Of a stretch of 64,000 nt of DNA, positions 12,001-51,000 are shown piece after piece (position 1 is the first letter of the stretch; every line of letters begins with the position of its first letter). Both the position numbers and the translations under genes were made by a program. The DNA comes from Haemonchus contortus (Eukaryota; Nematoda; Chromadorea; Rhabditida; Trichostrongylidae): contig LS997563.1 of the NCBI GenBank assembly GCA_000469685.2, positions 3,111,281 to 3,175,280 on the forward strand. The letters are read 5' to 3'. Under the pieces are notes generated by a model. That model saw nothing but the letters and a program-made list of their open reading frames with translations, was not told the origin of the DNA and ran no database searches.

Positions 12001-15000
12001 TCTCAAAGTTTCAAGAAGAGGAAAATATTTAACACAGACTACTACGTTGCCTTACGAAAATCGTTATTAATACTGTTAGGACTAATCGTCTTGATGACGA
12101 CTTTGCAGACATTCGAGGTAGAAGACCCATTTTTACGTCAATTGGGAAGTAGCGCTCTGCAGAATCATCTGGAAAGAATATGTCACGAAGTGGATCATGA
12201 CGCTAAAAGAATTCGAAGTGCAGCAGAAGTTACGAACACACAGTCAAGGCCTACGAAGTATACACTCTTCTTATTTTGTCTGATGGAGCAATAATGTTTT
12301 CTCGAAAGAACTTTTTTGGAGAAGATGAGCAGGGTGTTCTGTTGAAGCCAAACTATACTGCCGGCCTCAATTGGAAAGAGCTGGAATTCCTAGAACAATT
12401 CAGACGTCAAGTACAGAATGAAATCGAAGAAGCAAAGCCCCAGAAAGAAAATGAAAATCACACTTCTACCTTCGATCAAATAAAAGAAGTGATAAAGGAC
12501 TTGAAGAGAGAGATCCAAGTTAAGCATATGGAACTACAAACGGAAATGGGTAAACAAAGGGAGAGCATGAAAAAGCTGCGTGAAAAAAATTGAAAAAATA
12601 AAAAACATCGCAACAAGAACCAACTCCGATCAAGAGGATCAAGAGCATACAGAGCAACTAGAGCATACGGAGCGTTTAGAGCTCTCAGAGCAGAAATCGA
12701 AACCAAATAATGTAAACACCGAGGAACTTGAAGAAGACATCTGGACTACGATTATGAAGGGCCCAAGAGTCACGATGATTCCATCAGTACTCGTTCCTAT
12801 TTATCTGACGGTGACAACACAGATCAACAAAGGCACCCCGTACACCAGAATAACTGAAATTGGAAATGCGCCTCACGGAAATCAAAAAGAGCACTTGATG
12901 AAAAACCGAAGTGTACCAGAGCGGAGGATAAGCGAGGTTAACCCAGACCTCTTAAGCGATATTTGGTTTGTTCCTTCTGCCTAGCGAAAGGAAGACATTA
13001 TTCAGGTAGCTGTCCTACATATGCCAGCGTAAAATGCCGAATGAAGCGAGTGCAATGCAAACTATGTTTGGATATCCAGCACAACCCAGAGCATTGTAGA
13101 AATGAAATAAGACAGTGCATCTGCTGCAGATCAGAGAAGCATAATAAAACACTGTACATTGTACTAGGTCTGTACATTGCCGGAAGAAATCAGAATGCTA
13201 CGGAGAAGTTGAAGAAATCAAACACGAACTGGAGAATTTCAAGGAGTATTAGGGACTCCGAAGGTCACCTGACTAACCAACACCAAAGTCAGGGGGAGTG
13301 TCACAGAATAGAAGGAAGCAAATTGAATGAAGAGCATCATTTTACTAGTAAGTATTTTACACACCTTGTTTGTATTATTGTGTTCCTTATCGTTCATGTA
13401 TTTAGATTAATGAGTTCCGCTCTGAGGTTTTTTTTGTCCGGCATCACGGCATCACAAGACATCACGGAGGTGATTCCCATTGATCAGAGATCGCGCGGGA
13501 AAACTGCGCGTGCATGCCAACGTCCCGTGCTCAAGTCAATTGATAGACTCGGCGACCGCGGCCTGGAGCATCACCGAATAGAGCATCTCCCTTATTATCT
13601 TTAGTTCATTTTACTCGCATACCCCCTTTGTTCATCTCACTTTAACCTTGAGCATTGCACGTAGTTTTGTATTTATGCATTCTTAATCTTGTTATCGGTC
13701 TACTTCATCTTTCATTGATTCACCCCAACCTTACTGAAGAAGGCATTTGTTATGTTCTTGCGCATTATTATTCTAATATTTTTTCACACTTGTTTACTCT
13801 CATCTCTTCCATGAAGTTCTCGCATTCCCTTTTCCGGTATTTGTTCGCCACTTCGTGCGGTTTAGCTATACTGGTGCTCTTTTGCCCTCTCTCCACGATC
13901 TCTATCTTACTGATATTCCTCGTGTTCGTTAAGCCACTCAACCGATAAGTGAAATTGAATAAATGTTTCATTTACCCAATTTGAAGGTTCGTGTTCGAGT
14001 GTACGATACAACAGTAGCATCAATAGTGTGGTCTGTTAATAACTCAACTATTTCTGGTATTTTTTGGAGATCGATCAACAACGATGTGATAGGATAAAGC
14101 TCTAATTGAATTCGATCAATCCTGTTTTGGAATGTACACTGCTTTTGACTGACATTCGCAATGTAGCTGTGGATGAATATGTATTAGGCCCCTGCGAAGG
14201 ATCGTGAATACCTGGCACTGTTCAAGCCAGTGCCCTTTATCTTTCCAGGTAGGACTCAACCAATCAAACGACCTCAGAGAAAAACGTGGGTCCAATGTTA
14301 CTAACGCAATACGAAGATATAAACCCAGACCTGTATAGCAGAAAACCCGACGGTCGCTTACAGCAATGATCCCGTGGGCCGTGTAGGCGAGGCAGAATGG
14401 AGGTCCCGGCACAGAACAAATTTTTACCTGAAGTTGCATTCTTTAAAAATAACTAAGTGGATTATGAAAGAAAAAGAAATATTACATCAGTTGTGAGAAA
14501 GGAAATGAATAAAAAAGCTAAAAGGGATTGTGAAGAGAGATTAGAGATTACCTGCGTTTTACTACTGAACGTGAAATGAATGATGGAACCATCTTGATGA
14601 CCAGATACGAAAGCTGTCCTTCTTGGACTGAATACTTGTATACGTTCAGAAAAATGACGTGGATGTGAGAAGATTTGCAAAATATACCTATTTTATGAAA
14701 AATGGGTTTTGGAAGACCCGAGGAACACCAACTTAAAAGCCTCAACAATGAAAAACTAGCTATTTTACGGTAGCCAATGAAGTCATAGGGGCGTTATATC
14801 AGAAGAGTTCTTTGCAATTATTACGGATAAGTCGCTACTGATCTTCTTTCATTTCATAAGAGTTTTGTGTGTCACAAATCCACTATGAGTAACGCTTCGC
14901 ATTTAAAGGCACAGTTCACGATAGAAATGGTTTCTGAGGGTTCCTCATAGGATGAATTCAAGGTCCCATCGTATGCGATATCTGGCGCTATGAGGTCGGA

Positions 15001-28700: not shown

Positions 28701-31700
28701 AGGTACAAATCAAAACAGAATACAAGTGGGATAGGGGTGTGAGGCACAGTTCACCATGAAAATGACCACTGAGGTATCCTTTCAGAATGAATCCGTGGTC
28801 CCCTCGTATACCATATAAGGCGGTGTCAGATTAAAGATGGTCAAGATGGGCGGCTAGGCTGCCACACAGCGGGTTACAAACTAGATATTTAGTCAGTTTG
28901 AAGTTTAGGTCATCCCCTAGGTCTCTTTTACTCTTTTTTCTCAATCCTGCTCTTTCCAAAAGTACTGATAAGTATTTTGGCCCCATATGGTACATTAGGT
29001 CTGCTTTTTCTTGAAATATCCTGTCGTCGTCGACGACCTCGTACTTTTACGTAAGCACCTGACCCCCTGCTATCAAGTGGGGCGGGGCGCGGTAGGATTA
29101 GGCTTGTGCTGGGTCGACTGTTACTTGTAGCACTCACACATCACTTGCTTTGTCAAGCGTTGGGATCGGTCAGCCCGCCCACGCTCTCTTCTCGCACTTA
29201 TCTCTCTCAATAAATATACTGAACCACCGTTGTCTGTATTGTTTTGAAAGGGTAAACCACCCAGTCTTCCGCACCCATCCTGGTTATCTGGTGCATCGGC
29301 CTAACAGCCAAATTTCCCGCGTCAAAGAGTAACATCTTTGGGGCCTGGTACGAAGACAGCTCTCATCACGAGCACATCTATACGGTCCTTTCCAAGACCG
29401 CGAATCTTAACTGATTCATCCCATATCAGGGAAACTTTTCTCCCGTACTACATACGTACCTGGAGACCTCTTCTGTTGTACCAAACACAGAATTTGCTTT
29501 ACCTACTCCGGAAGTCTCGTACAGAATGTCGTTGCACTTCCACAAAATTCCGATTATGAACAGCGCAAAGACGCTTAAAAATCTGGTCTCCAGATACGCA
29601 GAGTACACAAGAAAAATAGAATATCCTACAGTAGATGAGGATAGCTATGAAATGTGTAACGAAACCATATCACTACTACAAAGTGGTATTAAGCAAATCA
29701 AAGAGGGGAGAGCGAACCTCATAAAACTCTATGAGGAAATAAGAGAAGAGTATAGACATTGCAAAAACAAGTCAGACAAGAAGGACTTATCGCTGGAAAT
29801 TGAGCAAATTGAAAACGAGTCTCAATTACACAAAGAATTGGCTAGTGCAGATGAGCTTATCTTCATGCTAACTGCACGACACGATGAATCTAAGTACATG
29901 GGGAATAGAATGAGCGTAAAACTCGGCTTCATTTCCCAGAAATCCTTACTACTTCAGGGCGTCACAAATGATAGTCCAGCACAGGGAATTGATCCCGAAC
30001 AGGATCACACCCTAACTGAAGAAACCCAAAGTAGCGAGAACAATCAGTCTCAAGCTACGCCATGTTCGGCAATAGTTGATAGAGCGGAGACTACTGTAGG
30101 ATCATTCCGATCCATAAAGCCTCCCCAAGCTTCACTGCCCAAATTTCATGGCGATAGCGAGGACTTCCCAGAATACTGGGCGATCTTCGAAACCCTCGTA
30201 CATAACAATCATGAACTAGACGTTATGGAAAAGATTTTGTTACTCAAGGAAAGTCTTAAAGGCAGAGCCGAAACCTCAATAAAAGGAATACAACTCGTAC
30301 CACAAAACTACGAGTGAATTATCCAAACTCTAAAGGAGAAGTACTGCAACCAGCCTGCAAATAGGACACAAGTGGTGCGAAAACTGGCCAACTTAAAGCC
30401 AGCAAGCAATTCCGCTGAAAGTTGCTCAGCCGTGTTCGACCAAATCCAGGTATTAATTAACCAGATGGTGTCCGCCGGCTATGACGTGCGCAAAACCTGT
30501 GACCCCATGTGGTATGACACAATACTGACAAAGTTTCCACGCAACTTAGTGAAGCATGTCCTACTTTCGAATGATACGCAAGATGGACAAACAATCGAAG
30601 ACCTCATGGGTCAACTGAAGAAAGAGATTACCGCTAAAGGTCTCGTGGAGAGCAAATTAGGCCCCAAGCCTGACATCAAGGGCACCGCTCCGAAAGATAA
30701 GTACGTCAACTCACGTCCTTACTCAAGCGATCAATGCCTGTTCTGTCATAGGGGTAATCACGCCTCGTTAACATGCAGAACTGTAACCGATCAAGGGAAC
30801 CGCAGAAAAATACTAACAGACGGTCGCAGATGCTGGAAGTGTTGCTCTTCCAGTCACAGCAGTTTCGACTGCCAAAAACCAGATTGTTTAAAATGCGGAC
30901 AAAAGCACCATGTGAGCCTATGCTTTAAGAGAGGAGGCGTAGGAAATAGAAGTCGAAACAACAGCTCTGGAAGTGCTGCCGGTCAAAACAATTCGAGATC
31001 AGGTTACTTCCATCATGACCAAGCAAACTTCACAGATCGAGATGAACTGGGAAGAACGAACACAAATGGCATTCAAATGTGCGCTAAAACTACTTTAGCA
31101 GACTCAAAAAAGGATCCAACCCCCTCGCAACTCGTATACTGGAGGGATATCACAAAATTTACCGACAAAAAATTATGGAATGCTTCATGAAGGATAAAGG
31201 ATTAAGTCTCTCGGCGTGAATCAAACCCATCTGATGGATGCGCCCCCGCACTCGACTTCCATTCAGAATCGTAGTGGAGTATGGAATGGCCTATACAATG
31301 ACTTGCGGTGGCCAGCTGACGTACAAGTCAGTATTTTTATCCTTCCAGATGAGTCTGGTGAATATACATCAACCCCGGAGGGATGGAAGACTTGGTTGGC
31401 CTAGGCGGATACCGATCCGGGATTCGAACCTCTGACCGTGCGTGTGAGTTAGCGCGCCAATTGCCACTACACGACATCCGCCTCAATGACTTCATATTTA
31501 TCTAAGAAATTAGTGGCTAACGCTAAGTGAAATAGGTGAAAGTAGCAGGAGGCAATTTCGATTCAAGACGCAAATAAGAGCAGATACTAATGCTTCCATT
31601 TCAGGTTGCCCTTAAGCTTGTTGGTGAGGACGGATATGTTATCACTGAGGCCGGTTTCGGTGCTGACATTGGCATGGAAAAGTTCTTTGATATCAAGTGC

Positions 31701-36414: not shown

Positions 36415-36700
36415 GTAAAGATCAAGTTTTTGGCGTTAATCAATCCAGCATTTAGGATGAGCCTACGCATTCAACTACCACTCAGAATCGTGGTGACGTT
36501 CTAATATGTGTTGGCCTATACAACGACGGTGGTCAGCCGATGTACAAGTCAGAGCATTTGTCCGCTGAGGCGAGTTTGATGCCACCTAACTGAATTCGGA
36601 GAGGTAGAATGCTTAGCTGGCCTGCACGTGTGCAGATGTGGGAATTGAACTGAGGCAAATGGTATGGATCACTGCGTCACTTGCCATTATGCTTACTCGA
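36415..36700 (-). mobile_element. tRNA-derived SINE, diverged copy
   Basis: Body words TGGCCTATACAACGACGGTG and CAGCCGATGTACAAGTCAGA remain; the B-box is mutated (GGAATTGAAC on the plus strand) and the head is poorly kept. Confidence 0.6.
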
Positions 36701-38910
36701 TAATTCTTCTTATATTGTATATACACTAGCATCGAGAATAGTTCGCGAGATTTTTAGTAGACTCTTGCTTTTGTATACACCTCTTCCTGGCCACCCATGG
36801 GAGCTACTGAAGGCCTCGTGGGCGGCTTGTCGCCTTCATTATTTCATCTACCAAAACCTGAAATTAGCATCGAGAATGGTTCGCAGGATTTCTTTTGGAC
36901 TATTGATTTTGTATACACCTCTTCGTCCGTATTCAGGCCATCCATTATTTCCTTGAAGGCGACCTGAACAACAAAAAGAAACAGCTTTTGAGAATTACTT
37001 CATGTATTTTCATGTATTAGGTGTTTCAAAAAGTTCTGTCGTTCTTCAACGCTTAACTTTCAGTGCACATATCTCGGCTCGAACAAAACTTTATCAATCG
37101 AAATAAAAAACATTATTGTCTACACACTTTTGCCAACGAGTAACAGGTTTGCCTATCCCGGTTGCGTAGAACTCTGGAGATTTAGAAGCGATGAATTTGA
37201 AGAAGGTCGATTTGACATCGTGTCGATTGTTGAAGCGTTTCTCCTGAAGGAAGTTGTTCAGATACATAAAGAAGTGCCACTCGGTTGGAGCGAGGTCAGA
37301 TGAGTACGATGGGTGTAGCAGGGTTCTATAGCCAAGCTCGTTCAATTTCTTCAGAGTGGTCTGTGCGACATGGGGGCGCCCGTTGTCGTGGAGAAGGTCG
37401 GTCTCTTCCTGTTCACCAGTCCAGAGCTCATGAGCTGCAGCTTCCGGTGCATTTCACCGAAATCATGGCAGCATCTTTCAGATGTGATAGTTTCGCCCGG
37501 ATCCAAAAAGCTGTGATGGATGAAACAGCCGTTGACCACTGAACTATCACCATCACTTTCTTTGACTGCTGTTTCAACTTCGGAGAATGTTGCGAAGCTT
37601 GATCCTTGTCCAACCACTGTCCAAAACACCGCCGATCGTCGTATAAAGGAGAGCAGAAGAGATCTCGAAACGACGGTTGTTTTGCTCGTCACTCAATCCG
37701 TGCGGCACCCACTTACATATTGAGCTTCTTCGACTTCCCAATCTCTCGCATGTGGCTGAAAACCGTTCCAATCAATACAATCAGTTCAGAGTAGATATTC
37801 CTCAGGATTATACGGTGATTCGCCTCGACCATTGCTTTCAATTCGATGGCCTACCTCCACGATTAACATCTTCGAGACTCTCGTCGCCGTTACGGATTTT
37901 CTCGAACCGTTGCTGTGTAGTACGTACAATTGCTGTTCCTGGACCGCTATGTTGATATATCGGGCCGTGTCCGCTGCATTCCTGTCTGGTTTGAATTGGA
38001 AAAGGAAGATGGTGCAAATTTGTCGTTTGTCCATGTTGTTTCCAAGCTTCTGCAATAGCTAGGAAGCCACTATAAAGCGAAGCTGATACAATATTCGGAA
38101 AGAGCAGGAAATACTCTCGAACGGTATACTACACAACAGCAGAGAAACCAAAAATACTTCAGAAGAGAGCGTCCAAAAGTAAACCATCCAAAAACGAAAG
38201 AACTTTCGGAAAGGCCTAACTTTTTTCCTTTTTTGTTGATACCCTTTTTTCGTGTCCAAGTGTACATGCTCAAGGCCTTGTAGGCGGCTTTTTATCTGTA
38301 GCATTTTCTCAAGTAGAACCTAAAAGAACAGTAAGGAACAGTTTCCGAGAATGTTTTTATTTGCTTTTGCTCTAATATGTGCCGCTTTATTTGTAACCAG
38401 GAGTAGTTGTTGTTGGCCACGCATTAACCTAAAACAACGATAAAAACAGCTTCAGGGATCTTTTGTCTCATGAGCCCTTGCTTCTTTAATACCCTTGTCC
38501 AACGCGTATTTACTGTAGGATACGTAGGTATAATTTCATCTATAACGCTTCCCTGAGTAGAACCTAAAACAACAATAAAAAATGTCACAGAATCTTTCTT
38601 TTGTGAGCTACAGTTTTGTAAATACCTTTCCGCATGTATCCAGGAGTAGTTCCGCTGGGATACGTAGGCCGAATTTCACCATCATTTCCTTAAAGAAAAA
38701 TTGAAAACGAAAAATCCCTGAAATTAGAAACGTTCCCATATCAGAAATTGTCCTTTTGTATGCTATTCCCATTGTTTATACCCTTCTTCATGTATCCAGG
38801 AGTGGTCCCGCTGGGATGCATAGACGATCTTTTGGCAACAACATCTTGTTCGATAGAACGTTTAGAAAGTACAATAGTTATTCTTTCAACACGTTGACGA
38901 CGAGAGCGTT
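36700..38910 (-). repeat. Tandem array of ~130-bp mini-exon units, split by a mariner
   Basis: Units carry an intron 3' part, a TTTTAG/TTCAG acceptor, a 45-77-nt exon and a GTATWYAC donor. Besides the three repeated exons used in the gene above, exon-like copies lie at about 36919-36963 (in frame, GNNGWPEYGRR) and 36781-36857 (one TGA). Others are at about 38230-38320 (two stops) and 39541-39607 (frame broken). Intronic words such as GCATCGAGAAT and TTTTGTATACACCTCTTC repeat too. The mariner remnant at 37017-38034 interrupts the array. Confidence 0.65.
37017..38034 (-). pseudogene. Mariner-family transposase remnant
   Basis: Minus-strand pieces follow mariner order: MDKRQICTIFLFQFKPDRNA (start at 38034), then KWVPHGLSDEQNNRRFEISS, then a FGEMHRKL..LVNRKRP stretch, then GYRTLLHPSYSSDLAPTEWH near the C-terminus. 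They lie in several frames, so frameshifts and stops have killed it. The 3' inverted terminus TTAGGTGTTTCAAAAAGTTC is present at 37017, preceded by TA. I find no matching 5' terminus above 38034, so that end is deleted. Confidence 0.85.
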
Positions 38911-39819
38911 TTTCGTTCGCGCGCCCATGGGACGAGACCGTTTGAAAGCGCTGACTAATCGTCGGTCACCATTGACAGACATCGTCCCACGGAACAGACA
39001 CAATATTTTGTTTACTGTATTCATAAGTAATAAGCTATATTTGTGTGGAACAAGTAAAGACTCCTGGAAACAAGAGAAAAACTTGTATTCTGTCAAGATT
39101 TGGGTGAATATCCTAAAGTCGTGGGACTTTGTAGGCCATTTCGATGTATTGAAGCTTTGAATAGTGAACATTCATAGATGGTACTATTTAATCGTTTGGA
39201 GGGAACAAGATTAGAGGTAAGGCGACAATTGTTGGAAGGAATCAAATTTTAATTGTTATCTGATATGATGTATGACTCCTCACTCGATACTTAATATTTC
39301 CATAAAAACCTCAGATTTAGAAGGATCACGGGTCTACGCTAAAGTTAGTAAGTAAATAAAGAAATGTAAAATATGAAACAAAAAAACCTGAGAATTTCTT
39401 CATTTAGCTGACTTACAGTGCTGTCGGTCACCATGGACCGACATCGTCCCTCGAGACAGACTGGCTGTCGATCAACATTGACCGACATTGTCGCCAACGT
39501 GTTCAAGCCGGAGAATCATGATTCTTCTGCTATTGTATATACCCTCGTCTTCTTATCCAATGATTGTTCCTCAGACCACATAGGTAATTTTTTTTTCATT
39601 TTTTTTGACTAGAACCAAAAAAAAGCAGTAAAAATCAGCATCAGGGAGCCTTTGTTTTATGCTTCTGTTTCGGTATTGCTTTTCCTAGAGCTTCCTCCTC
39701 CTTTGGAGACTTCGTGCTGAAGCGAACAGGCTCACAACGGTGATTCGGTACTTACCTTTTTTAGTTTCCGCGGTTGACAACGATACGAAGAGAAGGAGAG
39801 CGAAAAGTAGGGCCTTCAT
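38387..39819 (-). CDS. Predicted secreted ~100-residue protein built from duplicated mini-exons
   Basis: I do not recognise the family. Five exons join in frame to 303 nt ending in TAA: 39756-39819, 38782-38844, 38626-38688, 38493-38563, 38387-38428. Exon 1 encodes a textbook signal peptide (MKALLFALLLFVSLSTAETK). Exons 2 and 3 are both 63 nt, both phase 1-1, and both end in PSGTTPGYM then K/R-K-G. Exon 4 has the related PTYPTVNT; the last exon gives PTTTTPGYK and stop, with AATAAA overlapping the stop (38386-38391). The mature product is Thr/Pro/Gly-rich, has no cysteine and contains KR, KK and RK pairs, so a peptide precursor is possible but unproven. The exon 2 acceptor (AACAAG) is weak. 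Exon 1 is followed by a good GTAAGT donor. Expression cannot be judged. Confidence 0.6.
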
Positions 39820-40432
39820 GGTTAACAGTGCCGCGTGAACGAATAAGATGACGGGTGAAGCTTTTTACACAGATTGTGCACAGCTTTTAGAAAAAAACTT
39901 CAGACCTATTGAAATCCTTTAGTTCGGGCAATGTGGAATGCAATACCGTCATTTTGATGGCATTTTATATGCAGATTTGTGAAAAGAAAAAGGGTCTTCA
40001 GACTCTCGCTCTTCTGAATGCTATTTCGTCACAAATGGAAAGGGATGGAATATGTATTTATGGCTATTCCCCATAAATATCTATGATTGAATTGGAAGTC
40101 CTGTCCTCGTGGGGCGTCTTAAAATATTTTTGAATGGAGCTGACAATGAGTTATCTCTCGATTCTGCTCCTAGTTGCCCTTGTACTAAACCCTGCATCAC
40201 GAAAATTTCGATTTTGTGTCTTCTCTTCCAAGACAGATGACCTCTGCGAGGCAAAGTGCGTATTGCTTCCAAACAAACAAACAAACAAACATTTGCGACA
40301 CTTTCTCTCCTATACGGAACCCTCCAAGTGCAAATTCTAATGCACTAGATTTCAAAACCTTCGTGCTGTCTAGGGTGATCCCATACTTATGAAACGTACT
40401 GCATAATAGGATATACTTAACAGTTGGGCGGA

Positions 40433-48000: not shown

Positions 48001-51000
48001 GGACGCTCTAAAACCATTATACAACAAATGGCCTAGTAGTCGACAAACTGATTTCTCGACAACATGGTTCCATGGTTCTACACGGTTTCTCTCCTTGCTA
48101 GTGTTTTTAAAAATTCATCATCAAGGAAGAGGAGGATGTTAGAGGCTCAAGTTTCACAGTAGCCAGTTCCATCCTTCGCGAGGCCGATGGCGTAACTAAT
48201 ACAGAGATGGCGAATGCAGGAGTAGGCAAGAACGCTTGTAGGAATAGGCAAGAACATTTGTTGCTTAGTTCTGAGCTGACCCCAGCCCAAATATCGAAAA
48301 ACAAGTTTCGTAATATGAACCATAACGGCACATTTTTGCACAAGTGGGAGAGTGTTCACTACCACTGCCAACCAGGATTTTCAGTCCTGTACACTCATTT
48401 TCACTCCTACTGCGTCACAAACCACCCTTTTACTTTATACTCGAGTATAAGGGGCAGCTATTCTTTCATACACACCACGAGTAAACTCGTCGGTGCCCAT
48501 TACTACTTCGAAGACATAAATGGACGAAAGAACGAAGATAGAGGACTCACCTTGATGGTGTCATTTGGGAACGTCTCAACACCACCGATATTGAACGCCA
48601 GATAAATCGGTGTTCCCCCAGTATTGGCTTGAGGATATGTAACAGTGATTCCTCTGTAAACTGATGCTAAAGATGAGCTAAGCAATGGTCAAAGTCAGCT
48701 TCGACCCACCTTTCTTCCAGGTCATGGCGTCGTTTTAACAGTGTGATCATATTTGTATGTCGATAGCATTCGCCGTACCAATTCATGCAGATATCCTGAA
48801 ATGGTATTGTTAGGGAGCAAGTAGTACAGACGCACAGTGAAGGCCTACTCACTTGGAATGTCACCGTATCGTTCATAACCATCGTGTCATTGTTTCGCCA
48901 TTGTGGTTTCATTGTAAATGTGATATTAGCAGCCAAATCGGCTTCCATCCGTTCTATTTCGTCCAAATATGACCCTGAAAGTTCCAGAGCGTTTCCTGTC
49001 ATTACTCACCCAAAACAAAGCTACATAGAGCGGCGTTCAAAAGTAGTAGGTGTTTTTCAAAAGTAAAGTACAAAACGTGATTTGCATTATAACTTATTCA
49101 ACTGCGGAACACATGGGATTCTCGCACGTTGCTTTAGAGGTTACCCGGAGGGACCACATTATTTCGGTTTGGGCGGGGATGAATGCGTGTTTATATGCAT
49201 AATTTTTATTGCAACGGTCGCATTACCAGGAATTCTAAAATTTCCTAACAAGCAGTGGCACTGAATCTTCAATACTACAGTGCATTTCAGTGGTATACGT
49301 CCACCCATCATTTTAACAAAAACTTTTCTAAAAGAACTGGCCCAATTCAGCAGCACATATTATCAGATTCGTTACTCAAGAAAACTATGAACAACTTCTT
49401 TTCAGGCAGGCAAGCCAACAAGAAAATTTTTTAGAATCATTTTTCTGAATTTCGACCGTTTCATAATATACGTCCACCCCTGTTATATTAATCAAGAAAA
49501 ATTTTCCTGTTTCAACCGGCGTACATGTCTGTACCAAAATCAAAGGCGACATGTCCTCGTGCTATGCCACGTGGTCCCCGTCTCTCTGCAGAAGAAAAGG
49601 CTCAGATTCGAGCTCTCCACGAGGCCGGACTCAGCAATCGGCGCATTGCCAATCAAATCGGCAGGACTCATTGCGTGGTCTTCTCCTATCTCAGAGATAC
49701 TGAAGCCTACGACAAAGGAGGTGCCCAAGGACGTCAACGCAAGTTGTCCAGCAGAGATGAACGAGAAATATGGAGGAGAGCTTCGAACAGTACCATCAGC
49801 GTCAATCAGATCCGTGCAGACTTGAAACTCTCTGCGTCGAAAACAACCGTGTGGAGAGCTATCAAACGCAGTGGCAACATTGTAAGAGAAGTTATGAGAA
49901 AGGCGCCACGTCTAACCAACTCGCACAGGATGGCTCGCCTCGGCTCAAAAGAATGCGACCACGGATTGGAAACAGGTGCAGTCGTGAAGCTAGGTATAGC
50001 TCGTGCACTGTAATTCAATTTAAAGTCTTTAGGTGATCTTCTCCGACGAGAAGAAGTTCAACCTCGACGGGCCCGATGGAGCGAGATGTTATTGGCGTGA
50101 TCTGAGGAGGGACCCAGACCAGTTCAGCAGGCGCAACTTCGGTGGCGGTTCGCTGATGGTTTGGGGAGCTTACTGCTGGGATAGCAAGCTGGAGCTCGGA
50201 TCTGCATCCTGTCGAATGGATTCGCAAGAGTACCAGCAGGTTTGGAATCCAAGTTATTGCCGTTTCTGAGCCGCAGGCGACGGCAAAGGCTGGTCTTCCA
50301 GCAGGACAATGCAAGTGTCCATGCTAGCAGGTCAACATCTGCATGGTTTCAGCAACAGAAAGTGGATGTTATGGAGTGGCCTGCGTGCAGTCCTGATCTT
50401 AACCCAATGGAGAACCTTTGGGGAATAATTGCGCGACGGGTGTGCGCCAACAGCAGGCAGTTTTCCACCATCGACGAGCTGCGGATTGCGGTCACGGAGG
50501 CGTGGAGAGACATCGACCCTTCAGTCCTCAGGAACTTAACAATGAGCATGCCGCATAGACTCATGGAGCTCTCATTCAAACAGGGTGCACCAATTGATCA
50601 CTGATATCCATGAAGTACACCGTTCTGTTTGTATAAATAAACTTTTATTTAGAGTGGACGTATTCTATGAAACGGTCGAAATTCGAAAAAATACTTATAA
50701 AATATTCCTTTGTAAACTTGAAGAGCTGAAAACCTATTTTCCATTGTATTCTAATGCAGCGATTTCCTTAATGCATGCTACTAATTTGGATCACCCCTTT
50801 GAGAGAATTTTTTGTTGAGATGAGGGGTGGACGTATACTACTGAAACGCACTGTATCAGGGCAAGCCATCCGTTTGTACTACAGAACTCAAACGAATGTC
50901 TTGGGGCGTTGACCAATCCTGCCTGTGGGATGCGCCAACGCATTCCCTCCATTAAGAATCATAGAGGGGTGTTGAATGCGTATGTGGTCTACACAGACTT

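Follow-up and report, generated by a model that had tools for sequence, protein, structure and literature searches.

A probable short, derived member of a Haemonchus gene family in which arrays of small symmetric exons encode secreted low-complexity proteins

What kind of gene builds a secreted protein from a run of small, similar exons? Neuropeptide-like and other precursors that are processed at dibasic sites combine a signal peptide with repeated units. The micro-exon genes (MEGs) of schistosomes, the blood flukes for which this kind of layout is best known, carry the signal peptide mostly or wholly in a 5' exon and have a coding region made up mainly of small symmetric exons, and in many cases their products are disordered, with abundant Thr, Ser and Pro (PMC4671649, PMC4350168). 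By definition most of the coding sequence of a MEG lies in exons shorter than 36 bp (PMC4671649), and according to a 2015 paper MEGs appear restricted to platyhelminths (PMC4350168). MEGs are also characterised by long flanking exons at both ends and by alternative splicing that gives variant proteins. Here we consider a minus-strand gene of the sheep-parasitic nematode Haemonchus contortus in a 64,000-nucleotide stretch, C2:3111281-3175280 (the window), together with its relatives in the 283.4-Mb, seven-contig H. contortus assembly that was searched. We conclude, with a probability of roughly 70%, that arrays of small symmetric exons encode a family of secreted low-complexity proteins, found until now in Haemonchus only, and that the window gene belongs to this family as a short, derived member.

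In layout the family resembles the MEGs. The predicted signal peptide is in the 5' exon, the products are Thr/Ser/Pro-rich and predicted to be disordered, and the coding region is mostly composed of small symmetric exons: all 17 internal exons of two paralogues, genes B and D, are symmetric with lengths divisible by three, as is one of the two in the window gene (63 nt, but not 71 nt). It is unlike them in exon size, the exons of the window gene being 64, 63, 71 and 42 nt and the internal exons 45-93 nt in B and 45-90 nt in D, none below 36 nt; apparently in the window gene having no long coding exon at its 3' end (the coding parts of first and last exons are 64 and 42 nt there, and 64 and 110 nt, coding part alone, in gene B); and in belonging to a nematode. 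Protein searches, which depend on shared short words and in the last of which the best 7997 candidates were scored, found no sequence kinship with schistosome MEGs, and the named relatives among the matches were from H. contortus and H. placei (two proteins) only. The Haemonchus family works like a MEG in its layout but is not classed as one. With precursors processed at dibasic sites the family shares the signal peptide and the repeated units; unlike in those precursors, its basic pairs are not conserved between repeats and there is no amidation glycine.

The original prediction described an unrecognised gene, but the gene had already been annotated. The four-exon join of 39819-39756, 38688-38626, 38563-38493 and 38428-38387 on the minus strand gives 240 nt, and its translation is identical to the public record A0A7I4Y180 at 79/79 residues; the window gene is therefore already in the databases, under a name no fuller than "Secreted protein". 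Public records are numbered here, P0001 being A0A7I4Y180, P0002 V3C99_013491, P0003 W6NXN2, P0007 the gene B record and P0009 V3C99_013455. The parts of the window gene, in window positions, are as follows.

39756..39819, minus strand: exon 1, with the start codon, the predicted signal peptide MKALLFALLLFVSLSTA and ETKK; phase 1 donor GTAAGT; identical to the start of P0001
38626..38688, minus strand: second exon of the annotated protein (third exon of the original prediction), 63 nt, phase 1-1, GNDGEIRPTYPSGTTPGYMRK; in P0001
38493..38563, minus strand: third exon (predicted exon 4), 71 nt, phase 1 in and phase 0 out; in P0001
38387..38428, minus strand: last exon (predicted exon 5), 42 nt, VNAWPTTTTPGYK and the stop codon; in P0001
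38356..38361, minus strand: AATAAA, a possible new poly(A) signal shortly 3' of the stop, without a counterpart at that place in B or C

Another AATAAA overlaps the stop codon itself. The proposal of a secreted-protein gene is supported, and both the signal-peptide exon with its GTAAGT donor and the stop-bearing exon PTTTTPGYK are where they had been placed, the latter as the last exon of the annotated protein. Phase 1-1 does not extend to the last two exons: the 71-nt exon runs into the last one in phase 0. The signal peptide lies wholly or mostly in exon 1, as judged by the (-3,-1) rule and by the lone helix in an AlphaFold2 model of P0004. We scored acceptors with a matrix built on 24 family acceptors (lowest 4.6), all taken from our own exon calls and partly chosen for good acceptors, the 10 from gene B being confirmed by P0007; the exons 38688-38626, 38563-38493 and 38428-38387 score 12.3, 16.2 and 14.7, and only 5 of the 3857 minus-strand AGs in the window, itself included, are as good as the first of these. 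P0002 and P0003 have their best match in the H. contortus genome at the window locus, show the exon content of P0001, and are 79% and 85% identical to the window product over aligned positions with only in-frame indels; these three records are gene annotations rather than transcripts. In the light of these two identities the fast evolution that had been proposed is likely.

Related loci lie on the same chromosome between 3.07 and 3.60 Mb, and were located by tblastn with the exons and by whole-genome searches.

C2, first exon 3598429: gene B, by tblastn/whole-genome search; record V3C99_013453
C2, first exon 3591505: gene C, by tblastn/whole-genome search; record V3C99_013454
C2:3579439-3577200, first exon 3579439: gene D, by tblastn/whole-genome search; record V3C99_013455 (P0009)
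C2, 3574965-3575313: family fragments
C2:3076416-3080510, plus strand, opposite to the others: gene E, a more diverged member about 75 kb from the window gene

All 24 matches of one genome search, a count to be read as at least 24, fall on C2. Other chromosomes gave two weak matches (E 0.09 and 2.0), which were set aside as chance. A 12-exon model of gene B reproduces P0007 at 308/308 residues, and its ten internal exons (78, 63, 84, 78, 78, 69, 45, 93, 78 and 87 nt) are all phase 1-1; a 9-exon model of gene D reproduces P0009 at 249/249 residues, and its seven internal exons (87, 90, 90, 90, 78, 45 and 78 nt) are likewise all phase 1-1. Gene C is modelled with 14 internal exons, which measure 66-135 nt; the last exon is missing from this model, and an exon that has no donor was omitted from it. 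Over 383 aligned positions the C model shows 88% identity to P0004. As the exon search admitted only phase-1 multiples of three, the regularity of C (14 of 14) is partly built in and does not count as independent; when the length rule was dropped and the splice matrices were taken from B alone, 11 of 13 first acceptor-donor pairs in C were multiples of three. B, C and D together have 31 modelled internal exons, and 78 nt is the length of 14 of them; many of the internal exons of B and D hold a single P-x-x-T-T/N-P-G-Y-like or GWPGYGGRG-like core. The record numbers 013453-013455 versus 013491 are consistent with the same order of genes in a second assembly.

Some features of single members stand apart. 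The exon ends that reproduce P0009 exactly need GC rather than GT donors after three of the seven internal exons of gene D, and its first intron holds a stretch that looks transposase-like by eye. In gene E a signal-peptide exon leads into exons of the GSTQGTNEN and GSNQKPDEK types in alternation, and in some of these the frame is broken. The other assembly has records identical to B (308 amino acids) and D (249 amino acids), while its record for the window gene, P0002, stays at the 79% given above, a contrast that appears striking, be it in rate or in haplotype history.

The family takes in the records V3C99_013453, V3C99_013454, V3C99_013455, V3C99_013491, A0A7I4Y180 (the window gene), W6NXN2 and the two H. 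placei proteins, and the public labels of its records are hypothetical, secreted, uncharacterized, unnamed, or transferred names. In Pfam and NCBIfam nothing lies above cut-off for P0001, P0004, P0006, P0007 or P0008, nor in Pfam for P0009; the profile matches below threshold include FSAP_sig_propep for P0001 (11.5 bits, cut-off 27) and DUF6852 for P0009 (17.4 bits, cut-off 27). P0004 has no relative of solved structure at E 1. Among the titles and abstracts that literature searches listed, none described the Haemonchus family. Judged by the cut-offs of Pfam and NCBIfam, the earlier statement that no family with this repeat is known is true, but Haemonchus does have a family that carries it. 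P0010 (E 0.009), which has a DnaJ domain, was taken as a chance match.

How the arrays grow is clearest in the paralogues. Gene D contains a 151-bp exon-plus-intron unit 4.1 times in tandem, and gene C tandem arrays of 147- and 148-bp units. Two of the D units are identical at 148/151 bases, introns included; a third matches at 114/151 in an ungapped comparison and is out of register at its end. Tandem duplication of whole exon-plus-intron units, each about 147-151 bp long, allows the number of repeats to vary while the frame is kept. This proposal is supported, as is the descent of the window gene from an array of duplicated symmetric exons.

The window gene itself is a truncated version of a gene of this kind. 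By blastn, window 40084-36725 is collinear with gene B apart from two interruptions, one of about 600 bp near 39500-38890 and the other at 37007-38218, and the collinearity extends to genes C and D.

39820..40084, minus strand: 5' flank common to B, C and D; blastn 77% to B and D, and alignment
39543..39615, minus strand: relic of the paralogues' second exon, 73 nt, acceptor AG lost and a stop in each of the three frames; from alignment, blastn and translations
38219..38386, minus strand: in decayed form, what corresponds to the introns and exons that come next in the paralogues; blastn match, collinear with B as far as 3597379
37007..38218, minus strand: broken mariner-like transposon (judged by eye) inserted in the old gene body; B is contiguous across it, with B 3597379 at both edges
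36725..37006, minus strand: tail exons, glycine-rich and now decayed, left from the longer ancestral gene; by blastn, 73% to B 3597379-3597082 and 78% to D over 36996-36806

The DDE_3 match on the open reading frame 37094-37453 is weak (13.6 bits, cut-off 28.6). Decaying exon-like units had been noted downstream of the gene, and 36725-37006 does match the tail of B, C and D. Relative to gene C, the 38563-38493 exon has a 7-nt gap and the 38428-38387 exon a 38-nt gap, which together keep the frame. The donor that follows the last exon in B, GGTACATAC, is GGCACATAT in the window, and the stop stands just before it. The truncation is common to P0001, P0002 and P0003, since each of them has TPGYK as its last residues. 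The long first intron contains a 29-nt repeat in three copies, at window 38958-39492, inside sequence without a paralogue match.

The history of the locus can be read in part from these comparisons. Paralogues B and D have a signal-peptide exon with small internal phase 1-1 exons after it (10 in B, 7 in D; C, with 14, is modelled likewise), and their kind of gene can vary its number of repeats in frame through the tandem units described above. The window gene is collinear with such genes, but some of its exon acceptors are lost, it has an early stop and its old tail carries a transposon, so that it now reads as four exons for 79 amino acids. The mature protein would be secreted, disordered and mucin-like, that is, Thr/Ser/Pro-rich and probably O-glycosylated, and may act either where the worm meets its host or as part of a gland secretion. 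Variation would be supplied by exon number and possibly by alternative splicing, as proposed for schistosome micro-exon genes.

Composition and predicted structure bear on this picture of the product. After residue 17, Ser and Thr together make up 25.8% of P0001 and Pro 11.3%; over the same region Gly accounts for 13-19% of P0004-P0008, and the full-length members end in GWPGYGGRG-like exons. In an AlphaFold2 model of P0004 built on four sequences, the predicted local distance difference test (pLDDT) is below 50 for 415 of the 433 residues, and the sole helix is at residues 4-19. The glycine content and these ends, together with the public name 'Loricrin-like' on P0008, would also suit a Gly/Tyr/Pro-rich structural protein of cuticle, eggshell or feeding secretion that is not directed at the host. 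We hold this to be possible yet somewhat unlikely, as the window gene has lost the glycine-rich tail with its frame still open, and the five family proteins scanned with Pfam gave no domain above cut-off.

Is the window gene functional? Several observations weigh against our reading. The ratio of nonsynonymous to synonymous substitution (dN/dS), calculated from very few sites in each exon, is 0.89-1.18 for exon 1 against the paralogues, 0.55-1.26 for the 38688-38626 exon against its C copies, and for the 38563-38493 exon 1.19 against B and 6.1 against C, the last with half a synonymous change; between B and C the mature region gives 0.78 (bootstrap 0.49-1.32). The rates do not show purifying selection. 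The TATA-like box TATAAAAA of B, C and D is TGTAAAAA in the 5' flank of the window gene. Among indels of at least 10 amino acids in six protein comparisons, made with no control, only 9 of 22 have both ends within 2 amino acids of an exon boundary, and one of these is merely the missing last exon of the C model; three more have equal offsets at both ends, and the remaining 10 do not fit, four of them in the poorly aligned Gly-rich tail (P0004 versus B). Low pLDDT from four sequences is weak proof of disorder, and the glycosylation, tissue and role of the product are matters of inference only.

The changed TATA-like box, dN/dS near 1 against the paralogues, the lost acceptors, the early stop and the transposon in the old tail are also what would be seen in a dying pseudogene, the annotated 79-residue model then being what stays open by chance. 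This we regard as unlikely: three records carry the short form, and in two of them the protein diverges from the window product by 15% and 21% over aligned positions, all indels being in frame; the length changes in the last two exons compensate each other; and identity to the paralogues is about ten points higher in exon 1 than in intron 1 (exon 1, 79.4-82.5% identity to B, C and D; intron 1, 69.8-70.9%; 5' flank, 71.2-76.3%). Annotated records are biased towards open frames, so the presence of the short form in three of them is not a strong argument against a pseudogene.

The original prediction had the gene use both of two similar 63-nt exons, in a five-exon transcript of 101 codons. Its exon 2 belongs to the following feature.

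38782..38859, minus strand: unused exon copy, 78 nt, frame open, donor present, with AAC where B, C and D carry the acceptor AAG; the predicted exon 2 is its last 63 nt (38844-38782)

The two stretches 38844-38782 and 38688-38626 are indeed both 63 nt long, open, in phase 1-1 and 68% identical, and a repeat finder reports them as a 52-nt pair at 83%. We searched for pairs of equal-length open phase 1-1 AG-to-GTA segments of 48-99 nt, at most 300 nt apart and at least 62% identical, a threshold chosen after the pair was seen; this is the sole such pair in the window: the plus strand has no such pair, 20 block shuffles of the minus strand produced none either, and the repeat is therefore not chance. 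Tandem Repeats Finder gave four arrays in the window, none at the window gene locus. The equal length of the near-copies is partly accidental: the paralogue C counterparts of the 38688-38626 exon are 78 nt, its acceptor in the window has shifted 15 nt inwards, and the predicted exon 2 starts at the matching +15 position of the copy at 38859-38782. That copy aligns with the third exons of B (63 nt) and C (66 nt) and with the matching exon of D (87 nt). Its acceptor is TTTTTAAG in B and C and TTTCTAAAC in the window; the 63-nt version begins instead at an internal AAG without a pyrimidine tract and scores -5.5, below each of the 24 family acceptors, with 1620 of the 3857 minus-strand AGs at least as good. 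The five-exon model does have an open frame throughout, lengths that total 303 nt as claimed, and an exon 2 donor, GTATAA, that resembles the GTAT donors of the relatives, but we consider it very improbable and rejected it on the weak acceptor, the AC at the family acceptor site and the absence of 38844-38782 from all three public records of the locus. An exon copy that looks clean by eye may thus be dead, and the first repeat of the prediction is a caution in point, having lost its acceptor.

A processed peptide precursor had also been suggested. A dibasic pair follows 7 of 28 repeat TP-cores in P0001-P0008, the others reading MED, TED, MEK, DES, IEK and so on; the core pattern misses the P0002 core and the C-terminal core of short proteins, and P0009 is not counted. 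The dibasic sites are not conserved, which makes the idea weak. Amidation needs a glycine before the dibasic pair. That the gene encodes a precursor of small peptides cut at dibasic sites is the least probable of the explanations: K/R pairs do follow the repeat core in the window gene and a basic pair at residues 20-21 is kept in 7/7 records P0001-P0007, but only those 7 of 28 cores precede a pair, and the residue before it is Met in all seven, not glycine. The absence of cysteine that accompanied the suggestion holds for the window product (0) but not for P0004-P0008, which carry 2 to 14. From the Ser/Thr/Pro composition, the predicted disorder and the dibasic pairs at 7 of 28 cores, we therefore infer that a mucin-like disordered secretion is likelier than a peptide precursor.

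A broader and more tentative idea may be raised: blood-feeding Haemonchus might have independently evolved a MEG-like system in which the repeats of secreted, disordered, O-glycosylated proteins are constantly recombined through the copy number of small symmetric exons and perhaps through splicing, the window gene being a minimal offshoot kept for a use of its own. Expression at the host interface would make the family a nematode counterpart, in design, of the schistosome micro-exon genes. The family would then also offer, within one genome, a natural series that runs from arrays whose units are almost identical to a truncated copy of four exons, and in which the growth, decay and stabilisation of symmetric exon arrays could be tested.

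The window as a whole has no RNA families at the gathering score and no tRNAs. Retroelement-like open frames occupy 29415-31190 on the plus strand, with a DUF1759 match in 29415-30317 and none in 30318-31190, and pieces of a Tc3/Tc1-like transposase lie at 49492-50604 on the plus strand, with HTH_Tnp_Tc3_2_like and DDE_3 matches.

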